Assembly (NCBI GenBank): GCA_003731685.1
Contig: RCNO01000002.1
Coordinates: 15,510-54,366, forward strand
Source of the DNA: Bacteroidetes/Chlorobi group bacterium MS-B_bin-24
GTDB taxonomy: Bacteria > Bacteroidota > Ignavibacteria > Kapaibacteriales > UBA2268
Direction: 5' to 3'
DNA: 38,857 nt
A program made the translations under genes and the position numbers. Position 1 is the first letter of the stretch; each line of letters opens with the position of its first letter. Positions 6,258 through 34,318 of the stretch are shown piece by piece. A model generated the notes under the pieces. That model did not search any database. It was not told the origin of the DNA and worked only from the letters and a program-made list of their open reading frames with translations.

Positions 6258-6989
6258 TTATGTAAGCAAACCCACGCGGGCAAAGCTCGTAAAGTTTTTC
6301 CCTGCGATAATAAGATGGTCTAAGACTGGAATGTCGATTAATTTACCTGCCGAAACAAGCTTTTTCGTCATTTCAATGTCATCGGCAGAAGGTTGTGGAT
6401 TGCCGGAAGGGTGATTGTGGACAAGAATAATCGAAGCCGCTGCTTCGGTAATTGCATAACGGAAAACTTCACGCGGGTGCACAAGGCTTGCAGTCAAAGT
6501 TCCTTCGGTAACCAACTTTACTCGAATAATTCTGTTCGATGAATTCAAAAGAACAACATAAAACCGCTCCTGCTTTAAACCAAACAGTCGAGGTATGAAG
6601 TAGTTTGCAACATCATCTGGCGAATGGAAAATAGTAGATTCATCGAGGTTAAAAGATTGAATTCTACGAGAAATTTCGAAGACTGCCGAAAGAGTGACGG
6701 CTTTTGCAGTTCCAATCCCTTTAATGCTCTTCAATTCGCTTACATCTCGGGAGGCAAGTTCCGAAAGGCTTTGAAATCGTTCAAGGAGGCTCCGCGCCAA
6801 ATCCAATGCAGAGACACTTTTAGTTCCTGTCGAAATGACTATCGCAAGCAATTCAGAGTCGGACAAAGAACTTGGACCGTTGCTAAGAAGTCGTTCGCGG
6901 GGTCGTTCATCCTTTCTCCACTCTTTTATCGGCTTGTAAGTGCTAAATGAACTTATGTTGTAAATATTTTCAGGCTTGTCCCCTGCCAC
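6258..6989 (-). CDS. radC: RadC family protein (JAB/MPN domain)
   Basis: RPRERLLSNGPSSLSDSELLAIVISTGTKS and JAMM motif LVHNHPSGNPQPSADD. Confidence 0.95.
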   Translation of the reverse strand: MAGDKPENIYNISSFSTYKPIKEWRKDERPRERLLSNGPSSLSDSELLAIVISTGTKSVSALDLARSLLERFQSLSELASRDVSELKSIKGIGTAKAVTLSAVFEISRRIQSFNLDESTIFHSPDDVANYFIPRLFGLKQERFYVVLLNSSNRIIRVKLVTEGTLTASLVHPREVFRYAITEAAASIILVHNHPSGNPQPSADDIEMTKKLVSAGKLIDIPVLDHLIIAGKNFTSFARVGLLT

Positions 6990-8379
6990 GAATCACCAAA
7001 TATATTGTCCTTAAAATTATTTCCAAATCGAGTTTGAGCGACATATTTTCGATGTAATAAAAATCCTCTTTGAGCCTATTATTTATTGTTTCAATGCTCG
7101 CATCGAAATTAGGCGAATTAACTTGATTCCAACCCGTCAAACCCGGTCGAACCACCAAACGCCGTTTGAACAATGGTTGTATTTTGCTAAATTGTTCAAT
7201 AAAAACAGGCCTTTCGGGACGCGGACCTACAATGCTCATTTCGCCTTTCAAAACATTCCAAAACTGTGGTACTTCGTCGATGTGTGTTTTTCGCAAAAAA
7301 TATCCAACTCTGGTTACCCGAGGGTCGTTAAGTATTGTAATTTGCGGTCCCGATTTCTCGGCATCTACAACCATCGAACGGAATTTATAGCAAGTAAAGA
7401 TTTTCCCATTTTTCCCAACTCGCTCCTGTTTGTAGAAAATTGGTCCTTTCGAGTCGAGTTTAATCAAAATAGCGACCAATATCCACAACGGCAAACCAAC
7501 AACAAGTGTTATAATACTTACAACAATATCCATTAACCGCTTTAAAAAGGCTTCCCAAGGTCGTAAAAGTTGTGTGCTAATCTCAATCAATGGCATAGAA
7601 TATTGAGGCATAGTTTTAACCATACCTGTTAAAACATCATAAAGGTCTGGAACAATTTTGACAATGATTTGATTTTCTGCACATTTATTTGCGATGTCGA
7701 GAATTTGTTCGTGCTTGGGGTCTTTCATAGCTATAAACAATTCAGATGGGCGAAGAGTTTGGATTGCCTCGTCAAACTCTTCGATTTTGTAAATTGGAAC
7801 CGATATCCCATTGTTTTCTATGTGGTTATCCGCTAAAATCAAACCTTTGACAACATAGCCCCACGATAAATTTTGGTTCACTTTTTTCAAAAGTTCCAGT
7901 ACTTCGTTTTTTGTTCCAAGTATAACAACTGGAATTTGAATAATCTTTCGTTTACGAAGATGTTGCTGTAGCTTCCTTGCAGTAAATCGTCCCACAAGAA
8001 CAAAGAAAGTCAAGTCAATAAAATAAATAAGGAAAAGCAGTCGTGGTCTGGCAGAACTATCGAGAAACACGAAAAAGAATAAGATAAAATTGAAAAAGAA
8101 TGTCGTTTTGATAACAGCATAAAATTCTTCGAAAGGAGAACGAACCAACCAATTTCGATATAAACCATTGAAAAAGAAAAACACAAGCAAAGCTATTGTC
8201 AATACCGAGCCAGTAAAAAAAACATCCTTTGTCGAAGGATGAATATCCGACTGAAACAGCCCCGATTCAAATCGAATTAGATAATGAATGTAATAACTTA
8301 GGACAAATGCTAAAATGTCGAAAACCAATTCAAAAATAACAGGAGAGTTTTTGGAAAATTTATCAATCCATTGCTTCAT
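6970..8379 (-). CDS. Exopolysaccharide biosynthesis polyprenyl glycosylphosphotransferase (WbaP/WcaJ-like)
   Basis: N-terminal TM segments, CoA-binding-like middle region, C-terminal bacterial sugar transferase motifs ([11 protein letters not shown], KRxxPxxxE-like [31 protein letters not shown]). Confidence 0.93.
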
Positions 8380-9538
8380 TTTGTGTTTCCAAACCCCTCA
8401 ATGTCCAACTTGAATTTTGTTTTCCCAAAAAAGAGCGAAATATCCCAGCAATCGTTCCAGCAACAGAAAGAAGAATAAACAAAGGCACTCGGAAAAATTT
8501 ACTCGTCCTCCTCCCTTTCAATTCATTTACAAAACCAATCATCGCAGCTAACAAAAACAATCCCAAAAGCCCTGCAATTACTATCTTAATTTCAATGCTT
8601 GCAAAAATTAATAACAAAATTACAACAAGAATAGCAAAAACAGGACTAAACCATCGAAGAATCTTATGGGAAAACAGAAAGAAAGCAAACAAAGGTCTGG
8701 TAAATATTCGAAGGGAAGAAAAAATTGCCGACAACCCACCAGCCGAAAACCTCTTTTTTCGATGATATTCGTTTAAAATCGTGTTTCTGGGTCTTAAATC
8801 ATATGCTATGGCATTTTCGGCAAAAAACATCCTCTTTCCACGAATAAATATTGTCAGAACGTTAAAAAAATCGTCGCAAACTTTGGTATTTGGTATTTGA
8901 TTAATCAAACCGGCTCTTACAGCATAGCAAGGTCCATTGTTGTTAAATGTTCCGAAGATTCTGCTTTCCAACTTACGAATGATGTTGAAAAAACTTTGAG
9001 TATGGCGTTCTTCTGGATTAACATCACCCTGTTGTCCTTTAATAACAACCAGGTTCGAAGCGACACCACCCACTTCCCCATCATTGAAATGTGCCACCAT
9101 CTCTTTAATTGTTTGCTTTTCGGGGCGAACGTCAGCATCAATGAATAATATAATCTCGCTTTTAACAAGTGGAAGAAGATGATTAATGACCAAGTTTTTC
9201 CCAACTCGAGGTAAAATCAAAAAATCGACATTTTCGTATTTGCCTTTCAAATCTTCGAGATACTTGTTTGTGTTATCATTTGAACCATCGGAACCAAAAA
9301 TTATTCTAATTTTTTCTTTGGGATAATCGGAATTTAAAATTGATTCTACCAAAGGATAAATATTCTCCTCTTCGTTGTGCACAGGAACAAGTATCGTTAC
9401 ATCGGGTTGATAAGAATAAGATTTATTAACCTCGTTTTTGAAAAATGTGGAAAGCAAAAGCAATATAATCGGATAAATCAAAAAGGGATACACAGAAAGA
9501 GCAAAAAGTACTAAAACAAAAATTTTATAAGTTTCCAT
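8363..9538 (-). CDS. Family 2 glycosyltransferase, membrane-associated
   Basis: DVTILVPVHNEEENIYPLVESIL, IIFGSDGSNDNT, ILFIDADVRPEK and C-terminal TM helices. Confidence 0.93.
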   Translation of the reverse strand: METYKIFVLVLFALSVYPFLIYPIILLLLSTFFKNEVNKSYSYQPDVTILVPVHNEEENIYPLVESILNSDYPKEKIRIIFGSDGSNDNTNKYLEDLKGKYENVDFLILPRVGKNLVINHLLPLVKSEIILFIDADVRPEKQTIKEMVAHFNDGEVGGVASNLVVIKGQQGDVNPEERHTQSFFNIIRKLESRIFGTFNNNGPCYAVRAGLINQIPNTKVCDDFFNVLTIFIRGKRMFFAENAIAYDLRPRNTILNEYHRKKRFSAGGLSAIFSSLRIFTRPLFAFFLFSHKILRWFSPVFAILVVILLLIFASIEIKIVIAGLLGLFLLAAMIGFVNELKGRRTSKFFRVPLFILLSVAGTIAGIFRSFLGKQNSSWTLRGLETQNEAMD

Positions 9539-9544
9539 AAGGTT

Positions 9545-11191
9545 TTAGAAATCTTCAAATCTAAACACAAAACGAAAAACAAAATAGCCTTTTTGCCTTT
9601 GATATTTTCGATAATCGCACGAAAGTTGGAAATTGAAATTCCTTATAATTTCGAAGCCCCAAGAAAACTGTACTCGAAAAAGGTCGTTGCGAATTCCATC
9701 CAAAAAACTAACATAGTAACTATCGCTGGGGGTATGAACATATCTAAAATCTCCACCAACATTTCTAATAATTCGACCAGTGCTGTCAGTCTCGTTTTCA
9801 CCGTGTCGCTGGTAAGAAATACGCAAAATCGCAGGATAGCGACCAAACGCAAAATTCCTTACCAAAAACGCCACCTCGTCCGAATTTGGATAAAGATAAG
9901 TACCAAATAGTCTTCCGTCGTTTGTTCGATTATTGAAGCGATTGAAATGAGTGAACATATAAGGTTCGACTCGGGTATATTCCAAACCAAAATCAGTAGA
10001 AAATTCCGAAGAGTAAAGTATTCCGATATTCCAAGCAGTTTTGTTCGACCAGTAGTTTTTTCCAATCATCGAAAACATCAAGTCTTCGAGCATCCAAGTT
10101 CCAACAGCTTGAAAATTAGGCAAAAAGTTCCACTCGAAAGCAAAGCCCAACGATGCCTTGTCGCGGTCGCGCAACGAATGTTCAACCGATTTCAAAAATG
10201 TAAAAGGATTAAGATAGGCAATTTCTATTCCCCGACCCGAATAAACAATGCTCTGAAAATATGTCAAATTCCAAGTTCTGAATTGCAAAGTCGCAGAATG
10301 CAACACCATAAACTTTTGTGGAATATTTGCATCTGCTCCAAATTGAATTGAATCTTTCGGCTCGGCGACAAGTCCAAAATGCGAAAATGTATATTTAAAA
10401 TTTTTAAAACTTACACCAGCATAAAACTCATCCAACGGAGGGGCATTATCGGAAATTACAAGATTTTGGTAAACACCACTACCAAGAAAACGAGTCTCCC
10501 GCGACAATCCAGCGAAAAACCAATCCTTTTGGTATCGAATGTGAGATTCAACAAGGTCGAAGTCGCTATTCAACAGAGTAAACTTTATACTGTTTGCCAA
10601 AGTCTTATCTTCGTGGATTCCAAGTTCCCTTGAACCCGAGAAGATTGTGCCATTGGTTGCTTGGATATAGTAACCAAATATCGTATCGATTGTTCCGTAA
10701 ACGCGAAAACCCAAATTTCCGTATAAAGCATTTTCCGAAGTTCCATTATTGAGTTTATAAACTGTTCTTAAAGAACCAAGCGGTTTAACTGCAACAGAGT
10801 TCTTTTCATCAAGAAAATGATAAATATATTTATCCTTATTGGAAAAAAGATTAAGTGAAATAACTTGAACCGAATCCGATTTGCTTGGGATGAAAACAGC
10901 ATTTTCCTTTGGTTTCAACTCCAACTCAACAAGGAAATCTTCGAGCATTTTTTTGTCATTGCCATTTAATTCATTTGGATTTTCATAAACATTCAAAAGA
11001 ACTTGTTGAATCTCCTTTTTTGTGAAAGGTAAACGAAAAAAACTCTTTCCCGGTATCAAACCTTTGATATGAAGATGTTTTAAAAAAGGATAGACTGGAT
11101 GAGTCAATGGAACATTTTCCACCTGTCCAAACAAAGTTTGAGAAAACATCAGAGCCAAAATCACAACTAAGCTTAAAAGATATTTCGCCAT
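9545..11191 (-). CDS. Capsule assembly Wzi-like outer-membrane protein
   Basis: 548 aa, signal peptide, long beta-barrel pattern, HPVYPFLKHLHIKGLIPG N-terminus and genomic position beside a Wza-like export gene. Confidence 0.72.
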   Translation of the reverse strand: MAKYLLSLVVILALMFSQTLFGQVENVPLTHPVYPFLKHLHIKGLIPGKSFFRLPFTKKEIQQVLLNVYENPNELNGNDKKMLEDFLVELELKPKENAVFIPSKSDSVQVISLNLFSNKDKYIYHFLDEKNSVAVKPLGSLRTVYKLNNGTSENALYGNLGFRVYGTIDTIFGYYIQATNGTIFSGSRELGIHEDKTLANSIKFTLLNSDFDLVESHIRYQKDWFFAGLSRETRFLGSGVYQNLVISDNAPPLDEFYAGVSFKNFKYTFSHFGLVAEPKDSIQFGADANIPQKFMVLHSATLQFRTWNLTYFQSIVYSGRGIEIAYLNPFTFLKSVEHSLRDRDKASLGFAFEWNFLPNFQAVGTWMLEDLMFSMIGKNYWSNKTAWNIGILYSSEFSTDFGLEYTRVEPYMFTHFNRFNNRTNDGRLFGTYLYPNSDEVAFLVRNFAFGRYPAILRISYQRHGENETDSTGRIIRNVGGDFRYVHTPSDSYYVSFLDGIRNDLFRVQFSWGFEIIRNFNFQLSCDYRKYQRQKGYFVFRFVFRFEDF

Positions 11192-12912
11192 TAATTTCTT
11201 CGCGTTAAATTGATAATCAAATAGGTTAAGCTGATTAAAGTTGCAATCCCAGTTGCAATTAAGCTGTAATACTGAATTTCTGTGCCCGGTGGATTATCGG
11301 GAGCGGATGGCACAAAGATTTCGTCGCCATCGAGTACAGCGAACGACTTGGGGTCGAGCCAAGCCTTTTGAATCCCCCGAATAATTCGAACACGACTTTT
11401 CTTTGCAGTGCTCAAATATCCGCCAGCTTTTTCGATGTACCATTCGTAGTTTTTGCCTTCAACATATTCAACAAATCCGGGATTTTTCACCTGTCCCCAA
11501 ACAAACACTCTCTTCTTTGCAGATGGAATAATTACCATATCGCCATCGGAAAGCAAAATATTTTGCTGGGGATTATTCTGCTTCAACAATGCTTCGAAAT
11601 CACAGGAAACAAGATGGGATTTGGTCAATAAGTTCATTTTGGTTCGGGTTGTGTCCTCCATAGTCAAATTGCTCTGTTTCAGGAAGGCGTAAAAGTCGAG
11701 CATAAGGTCGTCCGAAAATTTTTTGGGAGGATAACTCCGCACGACATAGGATTGCGAAAGCAAAGGTTCCCCAACAATTCCACCGGCAAAATTAATCAAG
11801 TCCAAAATTCGTGTCTTCCCAAGTTCGATTTGATAAATACCGGGATTCCTCACGGTTCCGAAGATTCCTGCTACGCCCACAGTAGCTTTTGTAATCGGCG
11901 CCTTTTCGGGAACAATTATACTCGCATAAGGTTGCAATTCAAAATCATTTACAGGATATAAGTTTGAATCAATCGAAACTTTAACTTGTTCGGTTCCGTT
12001 CACAACAACAACATTGGACAGGTCTGCATTTTCATTAAAACCTTTGGCAAATTTTATAAAATCAGAAACTTTATCTCCTTTTTTGAAAAAATATTTTCCG
12101 GGCTGAACCAAAGCACCCGAAACGCTAACGAATTCAAATTCCTCGCGAGGGAAGGGCACATAAATTTCATCACCTTCGCGAATATATGGGTCAAAAATAA
12201 AAGTATTCCGAGATTTGCTCAACTCAAGGTCGGCTTTCCTCAGACCATAAATTTGATTGAAAACCGAAATGTTCCTTGTCGAATAAAACGATTCGCTTGG
12301 TATTCCGCGCGCCACAAGTTCTTCCTCCCTTCGGCGGTTTATTTTGCTTAGTAAAATTTCGTTTTCGAAAGCATTCATTGTAATTTCTTGGTTCGAGAAT
12401 TCCAAATTGGCTATGGCAACTGCATCGGAAACACGAAAACTCGCTGGCAACGAATAGATACCCGGCTTTCGCACATTCCCAAAAGCTTTAATTAACACAA
12501 TCCGAGGTTGAAATAAAGAAATCGAAACTTCAGCCGAAGGGTTTACTTTTTTAACTTGTTCGATAATTGCCTTCTTTGCCTCCAACAGTGTTTTCCCCTG
12601 AACATCGACGAAGCCATATCTCGACAAGGCTAATTTGCCATCGGCTGTAACTTTCGCATATTCCGTTGTAATTGTTGCTGGTGTTACCAAAATCGAGAAT
12701 ATATCGTTTGGACCAACATAATAGAAAGAGTCGGCAACAAAGGAACTCGTTGGAAATTTTTCGGTTTGCGAAAAAATTTGCTGTTGGAATGGGCTCTTTA
12801 ATTGTTCTTCCGAATAAATATCTTTCTGTAAAGTTGGTAATCCCGTGATTTGGGGAAACAGAAAAGACAAGTTTAAAACAAACAAAAAGAAAACTGCAAA
12901 AAAACCACGCAT
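11191..12912 (-). CDS. Polysaccharide export protein with multiple SLBB domains (Wza-like)
   Basis: YYVGPNDIFSILV...TADGKLALSRYGFVDVQGKTLLEAKKAI export domain, then repeated SLBB motifs (VSGALVQPGKYFFKKGDKVSDFI; VAGIFGTVRNPGIYQIELGKTRILDLI; VWGQVKNPGFVEYVEGKNYEWYI). Start set at ATG 12912 (MRGFFAVFFLF signal peptide) rather than 12951. Confidence 0.9.
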   Translation of the reverse strand: MRGFFAVFFLFVLNLSFLFPQITGLPTLQKDIYSEEQLKSPFQQQIFSQTEKFPTSSFVADSFYYVGPNDIFSILVTPATITTEYAKVTADGKLALSRYGFVDVQGKTLLEAKKAIIEQVKKVNPSAEVSISLFQPRIVLIKAFGNVRKPGIYSLPASFRVSDAVAIANLEFSNQEITMNAFENEILLSKINRRREEELVARGIPSESFYSTRNISVFNQIYGLRKADLELSKSRNTFIFDPYIREGDEIYVPFPREEFEFVSVSGALVQPGKYFFKKGDKVSDFIKFAKGFNENADLSNVVVVNGTEQVKVSIDSNLYPVNDFELQPYASIIVPEKAPITKATVGVAGIFGTVRNPGIYQIELGKTRILDLINFAGGIVGEPLLSQSYVVRSYPPKKFSDDLMLDFYAFLKQSNLTMEDTTRTKMNLLTKSHLVSCDFEALLKQNNPQQNILLSDGDMVIIPSAKKRVFVWGQVKNPGFVEYVEGKNYEWYIEKAGGYLSTAKKSRVRIIRGIQKAWLDPKSFAVLDGDEIFVPSAPDNPPGTEIQYYSLIATGIATLISLTYLIINLTRRN

Positions 12913-13058
12913 TTTTACACCAATTAAGAAAACAAAATTAAAAAATACCAATGAAGTAATTCAAATACCCAAAGGATTGTTTAATAACTTATGTTCGAAA
13001 AGGCATTAAGATTTGGTTTTAAAATTTTTCACAAACGGCAACCCGTTTTTCTTAAATC

Positions 13059-13145: not shown

Positions 13146-15677
13146 TTATCGAACAATCGAAATCTTGAAATTGTCAATTCCTTTGTTCGTTGCTACCCTG
13201 ACAAAGTAGACGCCGTTCGAAAGAGCATCAAGGCGAATTTGCACTGGCTTACCCGGCGATTTACTCTCGGAAACAAGGTTCCCATACAAATCATAAATCC
13301 TAACATTATCAATCACGGTTTCGGGTGCGGAATTTATAGTCAAATTATTCTCGGACTGCAAAATTGAAATTCCAAGATTATTGTTCGATTCTACAAGCGA
13401 AACTTCTTTCGACAGTAGAATTTCATTATAAAACTGATAGTTAGACTCATAATCGGCAGTTACAAAAATTTCGGCATCTTCGTAGCCAACTTTCGAAACA
13501 ACAATCCGAAGGTCTCCGGGAACAAGTTCTTCGAGGGCAAAATCTCCATATTTGTCGGTAACATAATAATCCAAAACATTTCCATCTTTATCAAGGGCGC
13601 AAACCAAAGCTTCGGAAATGGGGTTGTAACATTGTGGTTCACTGAGTAATTTTATTATTCCAGTATTTTCTTCAACCCGACCCGAGTAACTCACAAGCCC
13701 TTTCAAAGAAAGCCTGTCTTTATGTTTAATTTCGTAAACTACTTGAATCATAAACTCGCCAACTTCAATTTGAGTGGCTTCGCGCCATTTGAGAGTTGCA
13801 AAATCATTTGCCTTGTAGTATCCGGGAACATATCTTTTATCTTTTGGAACCGAAAGAAGGACATATTTTCCCAATGGCAGATTTTGGAAAAGGAAATGCC
13901 CATCCTTGTCTGTTTCGACTACCCTAACAGTTGCATTTGGCTTATTAAAATTATCTCCGGAAGGCTGAATCAGTATTGCAAAAACTCGGGATTCGATTGG
14001 ATTTCGGTCTTTGTCGACTACAACTCCAGCAAATCCATTTTGGTATTTCTGACGTTCTTTCAGATAAAAGTTGACATCATCTAAATCTTGGTTAAGTACA
14101 AGAATATCAGCATTATAAGGTGAAGTAGCAAGATAATAGTATTGGTCCAAATAACTTGACTTATCCAAAGGAATAGCGTGGGCGATATAAGATAAATTGT
14201 TTGGCAGGCTGATTTCATATTTCCCTCCGGAATCGGTCTTCGTCACAAATTGTGGAATATTGCCAATGTTCTCCCGTTTGTCAAGAGCAAAAATAACTTC
14301 AACAGGCAAAAATTCTACAATCGCTGGCACTGGTTTGTTATCGCCCGAAGAAACCACAACTCCCGAAACACTATAAAGAACTGGCACGGGCTTCCTCGTC
14401 AACAAGACTTTTATGGTTTGTTCGGGGGGTTGCTCACAACTCAATGGAACTTTTGTTGCACCATTCAGACTGCTTGCCTTAAAGTAAAATTGATGTTCAA
14501 AAAGTTCTCCAGAAAATTCAAAAACATAAATTCCCGAAGGAAGGTAAAACTCAAAATGTCCCTGCTGAATTGCAGTTCTGAAAGCTGCGTTGCCCGTATT
14601 CATCTTCTCGTCAAGTTTCCAAGCAATCGCTACTCCATTGGGCACGGGAGGTCCGTCGTCGAAATTTGCTTCACCAATCAAATGGACACAATTCTTATTT
14701 GCATTATTATTTTGCACATTAACAATAACCTTTTGGATATCGTAAACATTTGTATCGCAAAGCAGGTAAGCCATAATCGAAAATTCAAAAGTTCCGGGAT
14801 TGGTTGGTACCCAGTTAATAATTCCCATCCCTTCATCAATGTAAAGATTATCAATGTTCGTGTTTAAGATTTTGTATTTAACAATACAATAAACATTAGT
14901 TTCGGTAACAACCTTATAATTATAGGGCACACCAACAACTGCTTTTGTAGGCGGAGTACTGACTATCTTCACGAAAGCCTTATTGTTATTGGGAATACTG
15001 TCGAGCACCTGCAATTGATATCGCTGATACGCAGGTTCAATATTAGCGGCGCAAGCAACACCAACTTTGATTTCAACTTCATATTTCCCTGCCTTTTCGG
15101 GAATCCATTCGATAAAACCAGTCGAAGAAATTTTCATCCCTTCTGGAACTTCCCCAACAAGTTCAAATGTTAAGGGACATCTAATATTCGAAGAAGTTAG
15201 CACCTGATAAACATATTTCTTCCCAACATAGGCAAGCAATGGAGGATTCGAAATGATTTTCACGAAAAATTTCTGTTCATAATACAATTGCAAAGCGACT
15301 TTGTTGCTTGGCAAGCTTTGGGCATCGCCTTTAAATGCTGTTACATAAAATTCATACGTTCCTTTTGGCAAATTGTTGACAGTAAAGTCATACTTATAAA
15401 CATTCGGCTTAGAGGGAATAGAATCTACAAGTGTTGTGGTTACTTTGTTTTTGTCGAAAGTATTTTGATAAATCTTAAAACCATCGGGGAAAACATAATT
15501 CATATCATTTCCCTTGTCGATAAACCAGTAAAGGTCAACTTTGTAAGTACCATCAAGGTTTTGCTCGGAGGACGCAGTTAATTGGCGAGGTGGATTTGGA
15601 ACAACATTTTGGGCAAGAAGGGGAATTACACTGAAAAGAACTACAATTATTCCCAAAAACAAGTGCTGCTTTTTCAT
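13146..15677 (-). CDS. Secreted multidomain protein (Ig-like/cadherin-like repeats, carboxypeptidase-regulatory-like domains) with T9SS C-terminal sorting domain
   Basis: Two repeats of putative-Ig type (ISNPPLLAYVGKKYVYQV... / VSTPPTKAVVGVPYNYKV...), several CarboxypepD_reg-like segments (GVVVDKDRNPIESRVFAILI), C-terminus VIDNVRIYDLYGNLVSESKSPGKPVQIRLDALSNGVYFVRVATNKGIDNFKISIVR. Confidence 0.88.
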   Translation of the reverse strand: MKKQHLFLGIIVVLFSVIPLLAQNVVPNPPRQLTASSEQNLDGTYKVDLYWFIDKGNDMNYVFPDGFKIYQNTFDKNKVTTTLVDSIPSKPNVYKYDFTVNNLPKGTYEFYVTAFKGDAQSLPSNKVALQLYYEQKFFVKIISNPPLLAYVGKKYVYQVLTSSNIRCPLTFELVGEVPEGMKISSTGFIEWIPEKAGKYEVEIKVGVACAANIEPAYQRYQLQVLDSIPNNNKAFVKIVSTPPTKAVVGVPYNYKVVTETNVYCIVKYKILNTNIDNLYIDEGMGIINWVPTNPGTFEFSIMAYLLCDTNVYDIQKVIVNVQNNNANKNCVHLIGEANFDDGPPVPNGVAIAWKLDEKMNTGNAAFRTAIQQGHFEFYLPSGIYVFEFSGELFEHQFYFKASSLNGATKVPLSCEQPPEQTIKVLLTRKPVPVLYSVSGVVVSSGDNKPVPAIVEFLPVEVIFALDKRENIGNIPQFVTKTDSGGKYEISLPNNLSYIAHAIPLDKSSYLDQYYYLATSPYNADILVLNQDLDDVNFYLKERQKYQNGFAGVVVDKDRNPIESRVFAILIQPSGDNFNKPNATVRVVETDKDGHFLFQNLPLGKYVLLSVPKDKRYVPGYYKANDFATLKWREATQIEVGEFMIQVVYEIKHKDRLSLKGLVSYSGRVEENTGIIKLLSEPQCYNPISEALVCALDKDGNVLDYYVTDKYGDFALEELVPGDLRIVVSKVGYEDAEIFVTADYESNYQFYNEILLSKEVSLVESNNNLGISILQSENNLTINSAPETVIDNVRIYDLYGNLVSESKSPGKPVQIRLDALSNGVYFVRVATNKGIDNFKISIVR

Positions 15678-15705: not shown

Positions 15706-16470
15706 TTAGTATTTCATTCTAAATTTAAAATTCAGAATTAAAGAATCGGGTATTGCTGTTGTTTCCTCAATTTTCAATTTAATCTCCTTTTTCTCCCAAT
15801 ACTCAACTTCCTTAACAATGGGCTTGTCGTCGACCCAAACGGTATCCAAACGGGTTTTCTTTACAGAATCAATCACAGTGGTATCTCGGAATATTGTCTC
15901 GAAGCGGGAGTCGAAAATTTTCCCATAACCTGTTAACCAGATTTCACGATATGGTTTGTTCAAGGAACAATTAATTTCCAGACTATTTGGGAAACTGCAA
16001 GGGTCAACAAGTGTATCTTGTGAATCTTTTGGACCTCGCCGAAGCATTAATTTCACCCAACTCCTTGGATATTCATTCAACCTCAAAGATAATGGAATAC
16101 CCAACACAGGAAAGGAATCCAAATTAAAATTATATTCTCTAATACTTATTCGTCGGAATTTTTCATCGGAATGTTTACGATTTCTGTAAAGCATTACTCG
16201 GAACCAAATACGAGGAGGTTGCGTTAAAGTGTCGACATAAATTTGTGTCTTTCCAGTTAAGAAAAATTTTTCTTGGTTATTATAGTCAAAACTACTTTCT
16301 TCAACACCATTTTCGGAAAAGGAAAAGTATGATATTTCAGGGCGGATGAAAGCCTTTTCCCTATCTTTTGGTGTAATCTTAACGGGACCATCTAACTCCG
16401 TTGGCGGGGAGCAAGACCCAAAAATCAACGGTAAAGCAACCAACAAAGCAATGAGAATAAATTTCCTCAT
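15706..16470 (-). CDS. Predicted lipoprotein of unknown function
   Basis: MRKFILIALLVALPLIFGSCSPP lipobox; start set at 16470 rather than 16503. Confidence 0.78.
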   Translation of the reverse strand: MRKFILIALLVALPLIFGSCSPPTELDGPVKITPKDREKAFIRPEISYFSFSENGVEESSFDYNNQEKFFLTGKTQIYVDTLTQPPRIWFRVMLYRNRKHSDEKFRRISIREYNFNLDSFPVLGIPLSLRLNEYPRSWVKLMLRRGPKDSQDTLVDPCSFPNSLEINCSLNKPYREIWLTGYGKIFDSRFETIFRDTTVIDSVKKTRLDTVWVDDKPIVKEVEYWEKKEIKLKIEETTAIPDSLILNFKFRMKY

Positions 16471-16480
16471 TTTTATAACT

Positions 16481-17671
16481 CTAAAAAATAATTGATATTC
16501 CATAAGTAAGCCCTACTTTCCTTGTTAAATAATATACTTTTTGGTTCTGATAAAGCAACATCGTACCTTCGGCACCCAAGTAAAGTTCAAGATTTGAATA
16601 TGCAGGCCTGTAGCGCAGTCCACCAATCCCTTTGACCAAAGGTCCCCCAATCTGGGAACCACCCGCCAAAAATGTAACAAATGGTTGGAAATAATAAAAG
16701 CTATAAGGTAAAGTATAATCGACCCCTACAGCAGCCCAAAAGAGAGCAGGCTTCTGTTCATAAGCAAACTGTACACCATTAATTTCGTTGTTGTAGGATA
16801 GCCCAAATAACTCTTTCCCAAATTCCATACCAAATTTTATGTCGTCCCATTGTGTAAAATACAAACCCAAGCTGACATTGTTCAAAACAGAATTACTTGT
16901 AGCAATATTAGGATTTGGGAAAGATTTTCCAGCAATTCCCCGAAGATTTATACCAAAATCCCATCCCGAATGGACATTACTGCTTTCAGGATATTTCGCC
17001 AAAGGAACATTTTTGGTTCGACTTGTAGAAGATAAAACCAAATTTAAGCTTCTATCCCGATAAACATTGTCTTGTTTTGTTGTTTCCAAAAGCAAATTAT
17101 TTGAGGAATTATTATAAGTTGGACGCGGAAAGGTTTGTTCAATTTCTTCCAAATTTTTATTATTCGCTTGGGCAAATGATTTATCGGAACTCTGATTTTC
17201 TTTAACTATATAAACCGTTCGAGGACTACTCGAAATTTTGGGGACAGAACTACTTTCCACGCTCGAAATAATCATCGGGGGAGTCTGAACGATTGCCTTT
17301 GGAGATTGGGGATTTGTATTAGTTTCAGGTCTTAAAAAGAAATATGTTAAAAGAAAAGTAATGATTGCGGTCGAAAGCATAAGCACAGCTGTTCGCCCAA
17401 ACTTTGCAAAGAACAAAGGTTTCAAAGATGGACCTGCATCCTCGATTGTTTTAAATCTTAAAGCCCTTGCAATGTTTTGAACAGCAGAGGCGGGCGGAAT
17501 AATTGAGTTAAAGTCGCTACGAACCGAACGGGCAATGGCAAGATGCTCTTTAAGTAAACTCCTAAGCTCCTCGTTAACCGAAAGAGCAAGGAATAAGTTT
17601 GGCTCTTCAGTTGCTGGCAACTCACCATCGAGAAATTCAATTATTTTTTCCGAAAAATTTCCTGTATCCAT
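16481..17671 (-). CDS. Anti-sigma factor-like protein fused to C-terminal outer-membrane beta-barrel (Dma-like architecture)
   Basis: Residues ~1-75 resemble anti-sigma N-terminal helices (IIEFLDGELPATEEPNLFLALSVNEELRSLLKEHL); one TM helix ~94-113 (TAVLMLSTAIITFLLTYFFL); S/N/Q/P-rich linker ~114-235; ~236-396 alternating beta-strand pattern ending YGISIIF. Adjacent to and downstream of an ECF sigma gene. Confidence 0.78.
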   Translation of the reverse strand: MDTGNFSEKIIEFLDGELPATEEPNLFLALSVNEELRSLLKEHLAIARSVRSDFNSIIPPASAVQNIARALRFKTIEDAGPSLKPLFFAKFGRTAVLMLSTAIITFLLTYFFLRPETNTNPQSPKAIVQTPPMIISSVESSSVPKISSSPRTVYIVKENQSSDKSFAQANNKNLEEIEQTFPRPTYNNSSNNLLLETTKQDNVYRDRSLNLVLSSTSRTKNVPLAKYPESSNVHSGWDFGINLRGIAGKSFPNPNIATSNSVLNNVSLGLYFTQWDDIKFGMEFGKELFGLSYNNEINGVQFAYEQKPALFWAAVGVDYTLPYSFYYFQPFVTFLAGGSQIGGPLVKGIGGLRYRPAYSNLELYLGAEGTMLLYQNQKVYYLTRKVGLTYGISIIF

Positions 17672-17682
17672 TTATCTCCCCT

Positions 17683-18249
17683 CTACATTTTTGACAATTC
17701 CGAAATATATGGGGCAAGTATTTCGCGAAGTTTTTCTTTCGCCCGAAAAATTCTGATCTTAACCAGTGCAAGCGAAATATTCAATAATTCTGCTATTTCT
17801 TGGTAACTCATTCCTTCGTATTCACGAAGTATGAAAGCTTCGCGATAATCAGGCGGAAGTTGCTGCAAAGCAGTATGAATCAACCCAAGCAACTCGTCCT
17901 GTTCTTCTTGGTCCGATTTGTTCTCGAAATACATATAATCTTCTAATTGCGTTGTTGTTCTACTTTGTCGTGCAAAATTCAAACAAACATTCCGAGCTAT
18001 CCGAAGCAAATATGCTGGAAGATTTGTCATATCTTTCGGCTCATCAGCAGCTTTATAAAAATTCACAAATGTATCTTGAAACGCATCCATTGCATCCTCC
18101 CTATTCCCTAAAAATCGCTTACAATAAGCATAAATCCTTCCTGAATATCGCCTATATATCTCCAAAAAAGCGTATTCGCTTTCACGATTCTTTTTCGAAA
18201 GCAATTTGAATAATTCATTATCACTTAATTTCTCTATTTCATTTTGCAT
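17683..18249 (-). CDS. ECF-type RNA polymerase sigma factor
   Basis: Region 2 (YRRYSGRIYAYCKRFLGNREDAMDAFQDTFVNFYKA) and region 4 (LQQLPPDYREAFILREYEGMSYQEIAELLNISLALVKIRIFRAKEKLREIL). Confidence 0.95.
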   Translation of the reverse strand: MQNEIEKLSDNELFKLLSKKNRESEYAFLEIYRRYSGRIYAYCKRFLGNREDAMDAFQDTFVNFYKAADEPKDMTNLPAYLLRIARNVCLNFARQSRTTTQLEDYMYFENKSDQEEQDELLGLIHTALQQLPPDYREAFILREYEGMSYQEIAELLNISLALVKIRIFRAKEKLREILAPYISELSKM

Positions 18250-18356
18250 TCATTTCCAATAACACAAATGGATAAAAAAAGTTACACCATAAAAAAGACA
18301 CTTTTAAACCCAACTTTATTATATTGCAAATTTTATAAATTCAATTTACGCTTTAA

Positions 18357-19475
18357 ATGGGAGAAAAAATAAAGATAATTTCTGTTGTTGGGGCACGCCC
18401 CAACTTTATGAAAGTTGCACCTTTGCCCCGCATCTTTAAAAAAATGACAGACAAAATTACACATTTGATTTGTCATACTGGGCAACATTATGATTACGAA
18501 ATGTCCCAAGCATTTTTCGATAACTTGGGCTTGCCCGAACCTGACTTCTATCTTGGAGTTGGCTCTGGTTCCCATTCCGAACAAACAGGCAAAATAATGA
18601 TTGAATTCGAGAAGGTTTGCATTCAAGCCAAACCGGACCTTGTCATTGTTGTTGGTGATGTAAATTCTACAATTGCAGCAACCTTGACAGCAACAAAAAT
18701 GGGCATATTAACAGCCCACATCGAAGCGGGCTTGCGAAGTTTCGACCGCTCTATGCCCGAAGAAATTAATCGAATTGCAACAGATTCGATTTGCGATTTC
18801 CATTTCGTAACCGAACAAAGTGGAATGGATAATCTTATTCGCGAAGGACACAAGCCCGAAAATATCTTCTTCGTTGGCAACACAATGATTGATTCGCTCG
18901 TATACATCTTGGACAAAATCGAGCAAAGCACTATTCTTTCCAATCTTGGTCTACAGAACGAAGAATTTGCACTAATGACTTTGCATCGCCCCAGTAATGT
19001 CGACGACCCAAAACAATTATCAAATTTAATCGATGTAATTGAGTTTATTTGCAATTACATACGATTAGTTTTCCCAATCCATCCAAGAACTCGAAAGAAT
19101 ATCGAAGAATTTGGATTGAAAAACAAGATTGAAAACATAAAGAATTTGATAGTTACCGATCCATTGGGATATATTGATTTTGTGAAATTGATGAAAAACT
19201 CTCAATTTGTAATGACCGATTCTGGGGGAATTCAAGAAGAGACTACATTTTTGAAAATTCCTTGCATAACAATGAGAACTACAACCGAAAGACCTATAAC
19301 TTGTCAGATTGGAACAAATCGGCTTGTGCCACCCGAAAAGTCGAAATTAATCCAAGCAGTGCAAGATGTATTGTTTGGCTCGCCAAAGGAATCTCAAATC
19401 CCAAAATACTGGGATGGCAAGGCTGCCGAAAGAATCGCAGAGATTATTTTGAAAATTTTTAAAAAGGATAAATAA
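18357..19475 (+). CDS. wecB: UDP-N-acetylglucosamine 2-epimerase (non-hydrolyzing)
   Basis: VVGARPNFMKVAPLPRIF, HTGQHYDYEMSQAFFD, HIEAGLRSFDRSMPEEINRIATD, TDSGGIQEETTFLKIPCITMRTTTERP. Confidence 0.95.
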   Translation: MGEKIKIISVVGARPNFMKVAPLPRIFKKMTDKITHLICHTGQHYDYEMSQAFFDNLGLPEPDFYLGVGSGSHSEQTGKIMIEFEKVCIQAKPDLVIVVGDVNSTIAATLTATKMGILTAHIEAGLRSFDRSMPEEINRIATDSICDFHFVTEQSGMDNLIREGHKPENIFFVGNTMIDSLVYILDKIEQSTILSNLGLQNEEFALMTLHRPSNVDDPKQLSNLIDVIEFICNYIRLVFPIHPRTRKNIEEFGLKNKIENIKNLIVTDPLGYIDFVKLMKNSQFVMTDSGGIQEETTFLKIPCITMRTTTERPITCQIGTNRLVPPEKSKLIQAVQDVLFGSPKESQIPKYWDGKAAERIAEIILKIFKKDK

Positions 19476-19477
19476 AG

Positions 19478-20401
19478 ATGAAGATACTTGTAACTGGCGG
19501 AGCAGGATTTATCGCTTCTCACATCGTTGATGCATATATCCAAGCAGGACACAGGGTTACCGTTGTCGATAATCTTTCCACTGGACGGAAAGAAAATATC
19601 AACCCCAAAGCAGAATTTATCGAAATGGATATAACCGCCCCCAAAATTGACGAAATTATTTCCGATGCGAAATTCGACATAATCAATCATCACGCTGCAC
19701 AAATGAATGTTCGGGTTTCGGTCGAAGACCCTGTCTTCGACGCTCACACTAACATCATCGGTGGTCTACGACTTTACGAATCTGCGGCAAAAAATAAGGT
19801 GAAAAAAATCATTTTTGCTTCGTCGGGGGGAACTGTCTACGGAGAACTTAACTATTTCCCCGCCGACGAAAATCACCCTTTGAACCCAATTTCTCCCTAT
19901 GGTATTTCAAAACTCACAAATGAATATTACTTAAAGTACTACAAAGAGATTCATAATATAGACTTTGTTGCATTAAGGTATAGCAATGTTTATGGTCCAA
20001 GACAGAATCCTTTTGGGGAAGCAGGAGTTGTTGCAATTTTCACAAACAAAATGTTGAATGGTGAACAACCCGTAATCAACGGCGACGGCACCGCAACGCG
20101 CGATTACATCTACGTTGGCGATGTAGTCGAAGCAAATCTGATTGCTTTGGGCGAAAATGTCTCGGGCATTTTCAATATCGGCACAGGAATTGAGCGAGAT
20201 GTAAATACTGTTTTCTGGACACTTAAAAACATCATCGGTGCCGTTGTCCAAGAATTCCACGGGCCACCAAAGCCCGGAGAACTTCAGAGAAATTCCCTTT
20301 CCTACCAAAAATTCCATCAATTAACGGGATGGGAACCAAAAGTTTCTTTCGAAGAAGGGCTAAGATTAACTGTTGAATTTTTTAGAAAAAATTTTCAATA
20401 A
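19478..20401 (+). CDS. NAD-dependent epimerase/dehydratase (UDP-glucose 4-epimerase-like, extended SDR)
   Basis: MKILVTGGAGFIASHIVDAYI Rossmann motif, ASSGGTVYGE, YGISKLTNEYYLKYY catalytic YxxxK. Start 2 nt after wecB stop. Confidence 0.93.
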   Translation: MKILVTGGAGFIASHIVDAYIQAGHRVTVVDNLSTGRKENINPKAEFIEMDITAPKIDEIISDAKFDIINHHAAQMNVRVSVEDPVFDAHTNIIGGLRLYESAAKNKVKKIIFASSGGTVYGELNYFPADENHPLNPISPYGISKLTNEYYLKYYKEIHNIDFVALRYSNVYGPRQNPFGEAGVVAIFTNKMLNGEQPVINGDGTATRDYIYVGDVVEANLIALGENVSGIFNIGTGIERDVNTVFWTLKNIIGAVVQEFHGPPKPGELQRNSLSYQKFHQLTGWEPKVSFEEGLRLTVEFFRKNFQ

Positions 20402-28699: not shown

Positions 28700-31600
28700 C
28701 TATTTTACCCAGAATACTTTCTTGCTACGAACAGTCGTTGGTCCTTCGACACGGACGAAATAGACACCATCGCTCAAAATATTATTGTAAATCCTAAATT
28801 CTTGTTGAGTTGGGCTGGAAAATTCGTACTCTGTCGAAAAGATAATATTCCCGAAAATGTCGGTCAAAGTTATCTTATGAATACCCAATTCAAGAGGTTC
28901 AAAAACTACATCGATAGAATTTTCGCTGGGATTGGTTGTTACCATAAAGATTGGACCTGGTTGAGGCTCGAACAACCGCAAGCCCCCACTCTTGCATACA
29001 TTTTTCAACGAAAAACTGCCATTTGTTTCTTTGAAAACAACAAACCCTTTCGCTGTCCGAGTATTACGGATTGCAACACTTGTTGAAGTATCGTTCCCAA
29101 GTTTGGCTCGGAAGTTCAAAAGGGCAATTGCCGAATCAGAATTTATTGGTTTGAGTGGCAAGTTGTTGATTACTATTTTGGTTCTGCCATCTTCGATAGT
29201 CCCTTCCGGCGTTGAACCAATAGGCTCCATCAATGTGTAGTTGAAAGAAATTTCGGTGGAAATACTCTGATGGAAATCAGTTACATTTTTAACATTTTTC
29301 AAATAAATTGGCAACAAAAACTCTTCGCCTGTATTAGCCTCGACATTGCCGACTGAAATTTCTGCAGTCGAAGGCAGAACTTCGAACGAGCCATCAATTT
29401 CTGTAAAATTGATAAACCCGTCGATAGCCGTAGTAGAATTAATATCAAGCGGAGTTTGTGTAACACTGCTATTTAAAACCTCGAATGAGATTTGCAACAG
29501 CACATTTGTCGTTGGCGTAATTGGGACATTGTCGAAAGAAATCGAGTTACTCCCCAAGTTAGTTGTAACATTTGGCGTAACAGAAACGAACTTTAGAAGC
29601 GATTGGTCGTAGTTTATTTTTGTTCGAACCTTAGTAGTCCCAGATTTATCCAGCATAATTCCATTTTTAATCAAAACCGGAATTGTAACAATTTCGCCTA
29701 TCAAACCCGAGTGCTTCTCGATTACAATATCGGCTCTGGAAGCAACAGGATTGCTAGTAACAAAGATAGAATCGTTGAAATCACAGGGTTGACCAGTTAG
29801 CCTCAAATAAGCTTTTAAAGCATCGGATGTTTGAGCCAAATATCGTATTGAAACGGAAATAGACGACATCGCTGGAATATTCCAAGGTAGATTGGGAGAG
29901 AGGATTGTCACTTGCGGGTCGGTAAATACCGCGTTGCTAATTGTCAATTGCCGATTCGACACATTTTTTATACTTATTACAGTATCTTTCGGAACACCAA
30001 CAACACCAAAAACCACAATAGGCTGGCGGTCAATTTGGGGACTTAGAACAACGCCGTGAAGTGTAACTGTTTGAACAGTTTGACAATAACTATCAATGAT
30101 CTTCAATTCACCATCGAAAGTTCCTTCGTTTGCACTATTCAATACAACCTTAACTGTTTGTGTTGATGAGGCAGGAACTGAAATTGGAACTGCGCTTTGA
30201 ATACTAAAAGGAGCAGATGTATTTAAATCCAGATTCAGAGCGACATTCCCAGTGTTTTGAACTTGAACATCAAGAACTTTTTCTTCGCCCGGACAAATAA
30301 CCCCAAAATCTAACTTATCGATGTTTGCTTTAAATGAACGGTCGGCACTGAAAACTTTCAACGGGATGGTGTAGCTCGGAGAATTTTTTGCATTACTCGT
30401 AATCACCAAATCTGCTGAAAGAAGACCTTTTGTAACCGGCGAACATTTTATCGTCAATGAATACTCACCCGATGGTGGTACCGAAACAGCACCGGGATTG
30501 GACGGAACAAAGGAGAATTCCGTTGCGTTGGCTCCCGTGAATTCAAACTTGGAAATTTCAAGATTCAAAGCCCCGGTGTTTCTAATTTTTATCGTGGTAT
30601 CGATAGAAGTTCGCTTGCAATCAATTGTATCAAATTCGATTGATTTAACTGTCGAAATTTCGGGGAAACCACTTCCCGAGCCAAAAATTTTCGACTCGAA
30701 TCTTCCTTTGTTAGTGTTGAAAACGATTTTACTACTCCTATCAGAAGCATCGGATGGGGTGAAAGATATGTCAAATTTCAAACAAGATTGAGGTTGAACA
30801 GTAATATTTGTCGTTCCTCCCAAAATCTTGAAATCGCCCTGGTCACCGCCAGAAATACTGATGGAAAATATCGTTAATGGCTCAACCCAGTTATTGCAGA
30901 AAATGGTCTGCTGGGGTAAATTCTTTGTTTGACCAACAACGCCAGAGCCACAATCAACATCAAGCGGATAAATCCATCCGGTTTGTACAGATAGTCGATT
31001 CCCATCGCAAGCAGAAGTAACAAAGTCAAAAGTAAAATTATGATAAGCAGAATCGGGAAACGGAGATATAGCAAGTTTTACATTTCTGCTCGAATCTTTT
31101 TCGAGTTTAAAAGGTGGCGGTGCTCCACCCCAATCAAGAACCGACACATTATTGAAAGGCGAAGTAACCCCGGGTGGGTTAACCATAATAAAGTTATTCC
31201 TTGCTTTGATTTTTACAGATACTTCGTAAGGCGTGGATTGATTTGTAAACGAAATGTTTCTTTCAACAACATCCAAAGCTGGTAAAAATGCTCCCGGCAC
31301 TTTATATGTAAAAGTATCGCTTACAGAAAAAGGCTTATAAACCAGTTCAACATTACCTCCGTCGCAATCAGAAGTAAACTTAATGCGACAAGGTGCAGGT
31401 GGCCCAATCGTCCCGATTGTATTCAATATATTTGAATAAAGGTTTCTAAGCTCTTCTTCGCTGGGAACAGTCTGATATGCTTGGCCATAAGGCGTTCCCG
31501 AACAAATATTATTTAATTCAGTCGGTACATCAAAGCCAAGAGTAATGGCATAAATTGTAACATCGTATTTCCTTGCAGAATCAAGAATTTGGGAAACCCA

Positions 31601-32254: not shown

Positions 32255-32287
32255 ATCTCCCTCCAATTATCCAAAACAATAACAAAT

Positions 32288-34318
32288 TTATTCAATAGGA
32301 GTTACAATTTCAATATTAACTGTTCGACAGTAGAAACGACCTTCGGGCAAATCATTGTTATAGAGCAAAATTGTTTCGCCAAGCCCGCGTGCATATCTCG
32401 GGTCGATTCCGAGCACTTTTGCTGTTTCTTGTGCGCGCCTCAAAGAAAGCTCCATATTTGTGCTTTCATTGCCAATTCTGTCGGTATAACCTTCTATCTT
32501 CACAAGAGAATTAGGCTTAATTTTCATCTTCGCAAGTTGTGCAATTTTCAAATTATCGCCCGTGATAGTTGATTGTCCAAAACCAAACAGAATCAAGCTA
32601 AACCGGTCGATTTGTTTGTCGGCAACTCGCTCAAAAATTTTCTTTTGTATTGTTTGGACTTCAACTGGCAATTCCTGTGTCCGCGATTCCCAGCGCTTAT
32701 TGTCTTTGTCCACAACAACAAGTTTATATTTCAAAGGCTCATCAAGTTTTGGGACATTCCTTTGCTCTAATGCAACATCCCATTCGATAACTTCGGGCAC
32801 ATCCCCTTGTCCTTCGAAAACTTTAACTATTCCTTGACTTTGCAAAGTAACTAATTGCCATTTGTCAACACCAATCTGGGTTTTAACTTTTGGCTTGAAT
32901 CTGAACTTCGGCGGGTTAACTTCGCGCAATGTATCTTCGACCACCAGTGGTTCGAGAATTTGGGGAATATTTGAATATATTTCTACACGACGATTTTCGG
33001 CAACACCATCGGGGTCGTTAGGATTCGATGGATTTTCGGGTAAATTCCTTGCCTCAATTTTAATTCTCTCGGGGTCAATCTTCCAAACATTAACAAAATA
33101 ATCCCGAACCGCCTCGGCTCTTCGCCGGGATAGTTCCAAATTGCCTTTTTCGGCTCCTTGGTCGCTATTGCATCCAACAATAGTCAGTTCGGCTTGTGGG
33201 TATTGCGATACCCTTTTGCCTATAATATTCAACATATTATGGTAGATATCGAGCGTATTATACCCATAAAGCTTGCGGACAGAAAAATCTTTGGCCTCGG
33301 AAGGACTTAGTAAATTGTACCGCTTTGGAATTTCTGCTGAATTTTCATCGAAAAACACATAGCCCAAGATTGGATGCGTTTGAGTAGATAGAAACTCCTC
33401 GATTTTCAAAACAGTTACTGGTAATTCGCGTCCGTTTTCGTCAAGACTCACTGCGTCGATCGATGCTTCAAGGTAGGGAGCCGATGGCGGGATGGGATAA
33501 TCAGGCAGCGGGGGCACTATTGGTGGAGCCACAGGCGGAGGTATTCGCTTGACTTTTCTCGGTGAATATACAAAGTTCACACCCGCAGAAAAATTAAACG
33601 CTTTCCACTCGCTATTCGATGTGATATTATTAAATCTCAACTTAATTGTTGCATTAGGAACCAAAAAGAATGTACTGCTTTGGTTCATTGGCAACCAATA
33701 GTTAGCACCAAAACCCAACCCAAAAGCCAACTTGTTTATATTGGGAATTTCTCCTTGGAAATGGTTCCTTACCCTTGTCCTTTCTATCGCAAATACCCCG
33801 TAGGATGGACTGACAATTTCTTCCTTTTGTTCATAATCGTACTTCAAAAGATAGTCGAAAGTGGGTCCCAAATAAATGCGAAATTGGGGCGTAAGCCTAT
33901 ATGATACAGCCAAGTCCCCTTCAAAAGCATTCAACGTCGCCTTCATCGAATGTTCGAATTCGCCCCAGACGCCTTCTTGGTGTGGAGTCGAAACATACTC
34001 CTTCTCGATTTTGGTCAATTTCGCACCCAAATTTGCATAGCCAGCGTTCAATTGCAAAGAAAAATCAGAATTAATGGGAACAGAAAAAAACGCTCCGAAA
34101 TTATAATTCAGCCCAAATCCCGTCTCGAATCGAGGACAGCAACTTGGAATGTTAGGAAAATCAATCCCCTTGAAATTCGCAGTGTGGAAGTTGAGTCCCC
34201 CCGAAAAGCCAACCCCAAGCGAAACCCTATTGGTAAATGGCTGGTCGAGGTACTCTGTTGTGAACAAGAATTGATGGGCAACCAAACAAATCAATACAAT
34301 GAGTAACAATTTTCTCAT
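32288..34318 (-). CDS. OmpA family protein with N-terminal beta-barrel, proline-rich linker and two OmpA-like domains
   Basis: Barrel N-terminus; linker RIPPPVAPPIVPPLPDYPIPPSAP; OmpA-like domain 1 (LTIVGCNSDQGAEKGNLELSRRRAEAVRDYFVNVW...AENRRVEIYS) and domain 2 (VKIEGYTDRIGNESTNMELSLRRAQETAKVLGI...RTVNIEI). Confidence 0.9.
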   Translation of the reverse strand: MRKLLLIVLICLVAHQFLFTTEYLDQPFTNRVSLGVGFSGGLNFHTANFKGIDFPNIPSCCPRFETGFGLNYNFGAFFSVPINSDFSLQLNAGYANLGAKLTKIEKEYVSTPHQEGVWGEFEHSMKATLNAFEGDLAVSYRLTPQFRIYLGPTFDYLLKYDYEQKEEIVSPSYGVFAIERTRVRNHFQGEIPNINKLAFGLGFGANYWLPMNQSSTFFLVPNATIKLRFNNITSNSEWKAFNFSAGVNFVYSPRKVKRIPPPVAPPIVPPLPDYPIPPSAPYLEASIDAVSLDENGRELPVTVLKIEEFLSTQTHPILGYVFFDENSAEIPKRYNLLSPSEAKDFSVRKLYGYNTLDIYHNMLNIIGKRVSQYPQAELTIVGCNSDQGAEKGNLELSRRRAEAVRDYFVNVWKIDPERIKIEARNLPENPSNPNDPDGVAENRRVEIYSNIPQILEPLVVEDTLREVNPPKFRFKPKVKTQIGVDKWQLVTLQSQGIVKVFEGQGDVPEVIEWDVALEQRNVPKLDEPLKYKLVVVDKDNKRWESRTQELPVEVQTIQKKIFERVADKQIDRFSLILFGFGQSTITGDNLKIAQLAKMKIKPNSLVKIEGYTDRIGNESTNMELSLRRAQETAKVLGIDPRYARGLGETILLYNNDLPEGRFYCRTVNIEIVTPIE

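Follow-up and report, generated by a model that had tools for sequence, protein, structure and literature searches.

Transmembrane anti-sigma factors give up their sigma factors through regulated proteolysis, as has been established for RseA, in which the periplasmic domain is the site of both RseB binding and DegS cleavage. In TonB-dependent transducer/FecR systems, the barrel (a 22-strand receptor) and the anti-sigma factor are separate proteins. Dma proteins were described in Bacteroides thetaiotaomicron in connection with vesiculation; their loss raises vesicle production. Their layout comprises an N-terminal anti-sigma domain, a transmembrane (TM) helix, a disordered tether and a C-terminal barrel, with ECF21 sigma genes adjacent (PMC13088901). 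Further anti-sigma factors predicted to span the periplasm to an outer-membrane barrel occur in the M0N98_03760/03761 pair of Phocaeicola vulgatus and the EcfO pair of B. fragilis (PMC9308784). No signaling line from surface to transcription could be shorter than a single polypeptide seated in both membranes.

Here, we examine a 396-residue protein encoded in a 38,857-nucleotide stretch (the whole of which is termed “the window”) from Bacteroidetes/Chlorobi group bacterium MS-B_bin-24. We consider it likely that this protein serves as an anti-sigma factor with an anchor in each of the two membranes, similar to Dma but separately assembled, and that it controls surface proteins. The architecture as such is already known; an apparent second origin, the expansion of the family and the link to the T9SS seem to be new.

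Architecture and predicted structure

The protein is the product of one uninterrupted open reading frame at 16481..17671 on the minus strand, for which the original prediction had given coordinates, strand and length exactly. Also as predicted, an ECF sigma gene lies right upstream (17683..18249, minus strand), separated by a gap of 11 nt; the product of this gene, the predicted partner, matches Pfam Sigma70_r2 (1.6e-16) and Sigma70_r4_2 (3.5e-22). Taken alone, the 396-residue protein had no significant match in Pfam, NCBIfam or PDB sequences, and the reading of its domains thus rests on its relatives and on structure prediction. Architecture, fold and the ECF neighbor together point to a dual-membrane anti-sigma factor.

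The AlphaFold2 model of the protein had a mean pLDDT of 61 and a pTM of 0.41; this modest overall confidence is attributable to the disorder of one third of the chain and to a shallow alignment (11 rows, each a homolog). Residues 1–70 (17462..17671, minus strand) form four helices (3–14, 20–32, 34–54 and 61–70) and are assigned as a cytosolic, RseA-like anti-sigma domain from this fold and from RseA_N/zf-HC2 matches in relatives. A long helix follows (residues 81–112; 17336..17431, minus strand), and it contains the single TM segment that had been proposed, with a hydropathy of 2.21 over 19 residues. Its predicted orientation is N-in: among 30 homologs, the net charge averaged +1.67 before the segment and –0.27 after it, and this topology was preferred in 24 of them. 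The expected linker of about 120 residues is present as residues 114–235 (~122 residues; 16967..17332, minus strand), which have no modeled structure (pLDDT ~30) and probably constitute a disordered periplasmic tether. In the 30 homologs, the tether is 110–187 residues long (median 126); by length, it could bridge the periplasm if extended.

The remainder of the chain, residues 238–396 (16484..16960, minus strand), was modeled as an eight-stranded barrel of the outer-membrane type, not as a soluble or non-barrel domain. Its strands (238–395) have pLDDT values mostly between 80 and 91, and the sequence ends in YGISIIF. The predicted C-terminal barrel with a terminal Phe is therefore upheld; its structured part begins near residue 238 and not at 236. 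A Foldseek search against the PDB returned Ail (2.5e-5), the N-terminal barrel of OprF (1.7e-4), OmpA (3.8e-4) and OprH (8.7e-4) as the top folds. The Pfam family PF13568 (OMP_b-brl_2) was discarded as a marker for the barrel, as it is too general (present in 99 of 100 genomes).

The complete architecture is retained in 30 aligned homologs, with identities down to ~22%. In this alignment, the majority-residue fraction is 0.21 for the tether versus 0.49 and 0.44 for the conserved ends. Such conservation of the whole, with a variable tether between conserved ends, argues that the architecture did not arise by chance.

The N-terminal domain

A Pfam scan of 30 family members detected RseA_N in six (best 8.7e-5; the 396-residue protein was not among them) and zf-HC2 in eight (best 0.005). 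When the family profile was compared to all PDB chain sequences, the top match was E. coli RseA (1or7_C), a weak hit at E = 0.17; the third-ranked match was the anti-sigma factor DdvA (8rlz; E = 0.46), and both align to the N-terminus of the profile. The anti-sigma-like N-terminus of the original prediction is thus borne out by the Pfam matches in family members, by RseA as the top PDB match and by the adjoining ECF sigma gene. Singly, the matches are weak; combined with the sigma neighbor, they make a convincing sequence-based case that this is probably an anti-sigma domain.

Distribution of the family

The two halves are fused in 48 distinct full-length homologs. An ECF sigma gene is directly upstream in 47 of these, and 37 of the 48 end in Phe. 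These counts bear on the notion that the gene is an accidental, local fusion of two unrelated domains that has nothing to do with sigma regulation. The absence of a significant Pfam match for the protein alone would suit such an accident. However, the fusion recurs in the 48 homologs, which come from many families, as well as in two proteins outside the order (L057 and L058), and all but one of the 48 adjoin an ECF sigma gene. We regard an accident as exceedingly improbable.

The named relatives, from a search of genome contigs with a seven-row alignment, are MAGs of Kapabacteria/Ignavibacteria, assigned by NCBI to the phylum Bacteroidota, in keeping with the earlier guess of a deeper-branching lineage. 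Homologs were found in 57 of 60 genomes of the order. The genome in question carries a paralogue (C21:9018-10247; 30% identity) in which the order is again sigma, anti-sigma, lipoprotein, and another genome of the order, 7.9 Mb in size (G050), has at least 30 matches to the 396-residue protein. The latter count suggests that dual-membrane anti-sigma factors form a very large family, and with at least 30 in one genome of the order, the published view of few copies per genome would need widening.

In a profile search of 296 genomes of the phylum, complete matches occurred in the same order; elsewhere, mostly the N-terminal half was matched, and it sits on proteins like the 153-residue anti-sigma factor in L059. 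The complete fused form outside the order, in L057 and L058, belongs to another family of the same class. A mirror-tree analysis was set aside as evidence for the anti-sigma half: the sigma distances correlate with those of both halves (0.61 and 0.65), and correlations this similar do not single out either one.

The operon and its surroundings

Downstream of the anti-sigma gene are genes for a 254-residue lipoprotein (15706..16470, minus strand; lipobox FGSC, with its Cys invariant in 11 orthologs) and for an 843-residue T9SS-sorted surface protein with CarboxypepD_reg-like domains (13146..15677, minus strand; TIGR04183, 4.2e-8; CarboxypepD_reg, 1.3e-18). The four-gene order of sigma, anti-sigma, lipoprotein and T9SS-tailed protein is conserved across families (L061-L070), and it persists down to anti-sigma identities of 24–29%. 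The lipoprotein and T9SS-protein genes, like the paralogue expansion described above and the promoter element described below, go beyond the original prediction.

No Pfam or NCBIfam family was matched by the lipoprotein, and there was no NigD_N match in the genome; with no confident fold match either, we do not claim a relation to NigD. The lipoprotein’s model (pLDDT 82) features two strands of ~38 residues that form a very long hairpin, and Foldseek returned no convincing PDB match for the fold (best E = 0.06). On one flank of the operon (6970-12951 of the window) are genes of the exopolysaccharide type, named by eye: an SLBB-like export protein, a sugar transferase and a glycosyltransferase. 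The other flank (18357-20401) holds a divergent gene resembling UDP-GlcNAc 2-epimerase, and the same neighbor is present in L061-L064.

A promoter element and a candidate regulon

A predicted autoregulatory ECF promoter, TGTAAC-N16-TGTTA, is located at 18260..18286 (minus strand), 37 nt before the ATG of the sigma gene. Of 47 sequences upstream of sigma genes, 18 carry the related pattern GTAAC-N17-GTTA, while the best dyad in shuffled sequences reached a count of six at most. The pattern falls mainly 35–42 nt ahead of the start codon, whether the genome is rich in AT or in GC. A conserved element ahead of a sigma factor’s own gene is a typical sign of ECF autoregulation, and by analogy the element found here may be read as such a signature.

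A second exact copy of the element (32280..32306, minus strand) precedes the gene for a T9SS-tailed protein (28700-32266) whose product matches VWA and Por_Secre_tail. Matches in the window with two mismatches were dismissed as being at the level of chance (11 vs. 11.9 expected). In the whole genome, TGTAAC-N15-17-TGTTA occurs at 18 sites versus 12 for the reversed pattern; given this mild enrichment, many of the sites must be chance occurrences. Nonetheless, five of the 17 distinct sites of the strict motif are just ahead of T9SS-tail genes, versus none of 12 for the reversed pattern, in a genome with 104 T9SS tails. The binomial probability of this association is 1.5e-7 if the sites are taken to be uniformly placed, and 0.007 once a tenfold bias toward intergenic sequence is allowed for. 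Further sites ahead of T9SS genes qualify by eye, some of the genes being split by frameshifts. Such interruptions of large T9SS-protein genes in the MAG, which may be real or assembly errors, were seen in L160 and L162.

The candidate targets encode IgGFc-binding-domain, VWA, Ig-repeat and C25-peptidase proteins, and the motif also precedes the equivalent genes in congeners. Based on these sequence patterns, we favor, as a lead with a somewhat better than even chance of holding, the idea that genes for T9SS-exported surface proteins make up the regulon of the element.

Two related observations were made. In various genomes of the genus, large secreted proteins are repeatedly encoded downstream of TGTAAC-N16-TGTTA (L121, L126, L130, L131, L133, L143, L147, L152 and L156); two members of this family match IgGFc_binding, and the rest share a G[KRT][ED]F[WY] motif. 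A 1759-residue peptidase of the C25 family (gingipain/PorU-type) with ILEI and CHU_C-like domains (L158, G000:C9:60447-65726) also has a promoter-like element upstream.

Common descent with Dma or separate assembly?

By its modeled architecture, the 396-residue protein qualifies as a Dma: all four features of the layout are predicted in it. The original prediction had left it at “related or convergent,” and we compared the two groups by profile. The Dma-type set comprised proxies rather than the Dma of B. theta itself, namely Bacteroidales proteins found via ECF and NigD neighbors, and it was widened by profile search to other Bacteroidia, such as probable Flavobacteria (an inferred lineage label). 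The latter (L099-L112) are fused anti-sigma factors of the Dma type with 470–620 residues and very long tethers, apparently a broad and little-described group.

For the anti-sigma halves, hhalign gave a probability of ~0.6% between the 396-residue family and the Dma-type proxies, versus 95.6–98.9% in within-group controls. The barrel halves gave 1.8% with the Bacteroidales set, 36.5% with the Flavobacteria-type set and 6.5% with the joint set (controls 97.5–97.8%). Among the genomes sampled, no Dma-type match was found in the window’s order or class, such matches being confined to “same phylum” genomes, and the two families never co-occur. In a tree of sigma factors, the partners of the two families form two separate clades, each of the two being supported at 100/100. 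The sigma factor of L059, which accompanies a short, barrel-less anti-sigma factor, falls on the Kapabacteria side on a long branch. It is the only one used as a barrel-less example; L056 was judged unsafe for that role, as the contig ends within its anti-sigma gene.

Could the family nevertheless be a divergent, true member of Dma, inherited from a Bacteroidota ancestor, with both halves having drifted past recognition? The identical domain order, the operons of sigma gene, Dma gene and a third gene in both lineages, the placement of both within Bacteroidota and the 36.5% barrel comparison with the Flavobacteria-type Dma (over 44 columns) speak for such descent, and the last of these leaves room for a shared barrel ancestor. 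Against it are the anti-sigma halves, at ~0.6% when controls reach 96–99%, the distribution of the Dma-type matches, the occurrence of the Kapabacteria N-domain without a barrel in other Bacteroidota and the two sigma clades. We therefore consider common descent unlikely. Of the two options originally offered, “convergent” is favored by hhalign, distribution and sigma clades, and “related” less so; separate assembly of the Kapabacteria family and Dma appears to be the better reading of the sequences.

Proposed mechanism

Architecture, fusion, sigma linkage, operon, motif and the lack of detectable Dma-type homology were computed directly, and they can be accommodated in the following proposal. 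The RseA-like N-domain would keep the product of the neighboring ECF sigma gene at the inner membrane, with the TM helix serving as an anchor, the ~122-residue tether spanning the periplasm and the eight-stranded barrel inserted in the outer membrane. The trigger may be an outer-membrane event, such as failed barrel assembly, binding of a ligand or partner, or loss of a surface protein; candidate inputs to the barrel are thus its own assembly, a ligand, and the lipoprotein or T9SS protein of the operon. Release of the sigma factor would ensue, most likely via regulated proteolysis at two sites, the periplasm and the inner membrane. Once free, the sigma factor would direct transcription of the operon that encodes it (along with the anti-sigma factor, the lipoprotein and the T9SS-sorted protein) and could also drive other genes for T9SS-exported surface proteins via TGTAAC-N16-TGTTA promoters. 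In this scheme, the predicted steps are the binding of sigma, the placement of the barrel in the outer membrane, the signal, the proteolysis and the regulon.

The barrel might instead be a mere anchor or folding sentinel that reports on the outer-membrane assembly machinery: failed insertion would expose the tether to proteases, and no surface ligand would be sensed. Such a role fits the well-known logic of sigma-E/RseA and the RseA-like N-domain. The Phocaeicola protein of the same architecture, which controls a regulon for envelope stress, is, moreover, thought to respond to such stress (PMC9308784). Yet the predicted targets are T9SS cargo, not chaperones or assembly factors, and the many paralogues per genome suggest many distinct signals. 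We find the sentinel role rather doubtful, albeit deserving of serious attention.

Returning to a barrel that senses, we tentatively propose, as a possibility somewhat short of even, that Bacteroidota evolved dual-membrane anti-sigma factors on two or more occasions and that the Kapabacteria expansion is a family of receptors that read the outer surface and set the output of T9SS surface proteins, with the operon’s own T9SS protein perhaps being the sensed ligand. If the device was built twice from different parts, it is a general solution and not a peculiarity of Bacteroides; a true second origin would also provide a natural control when asking which features (tether, barrel or sigma binding) are important. 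The locus furnishes an entry point to the control of T9SS surface proteins in a lineage that has hardly been studied.

Comparison with known systems

The protein resembles RseA of the RseA/sigma-E system in its N-domain motif (LxDGEL...EL..LA.N.ELR...IR..), its single TM segment and its ECF sigma partner. The part of RseA that is bound by RseB and cut by DegS is replaced here by the tether and barrel; in a Pfam search, the RseA C-terminal domain matched neither the 396-residue protein nor family members. As in TonB-dependent transducer/FecR systems, an outer-membrane barrel would signal to an inner-membrane anti-sigma factor, but here in a single chain and with eight strands. The Phocaeicola and EcfO pairs share the placement of the sigma gene directly upstream of the anti-sigma gene; they are from Bacteroidales, have a role in envelope stress and are likened to the present protein by description, not by sequence. 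In Porphyromonas gingivalis, the ECF sigma factor SigP regulates genes for T9SS components, with a two-component system as the intermediary (PMC4800418). Our proposal differs in that control would be exerted on T9SS cargo and via an anti-sigma factor.

The closest likeness is to Dma. Both families have an anti-sigma domain, one TM segment, a long disordered tether, a barrel and a multi-gene operon, and both lie next to an ECF sigma gene, Dma3 being the exception in Bt. The present family differs in its RseA-like N-domain, in having a lipoprotein without a NigD match as the third gene of the operon, in its far higher number of copies per genome, and in a predicted T9SS regulon in place of the PUL/NigD regulon of Dma.
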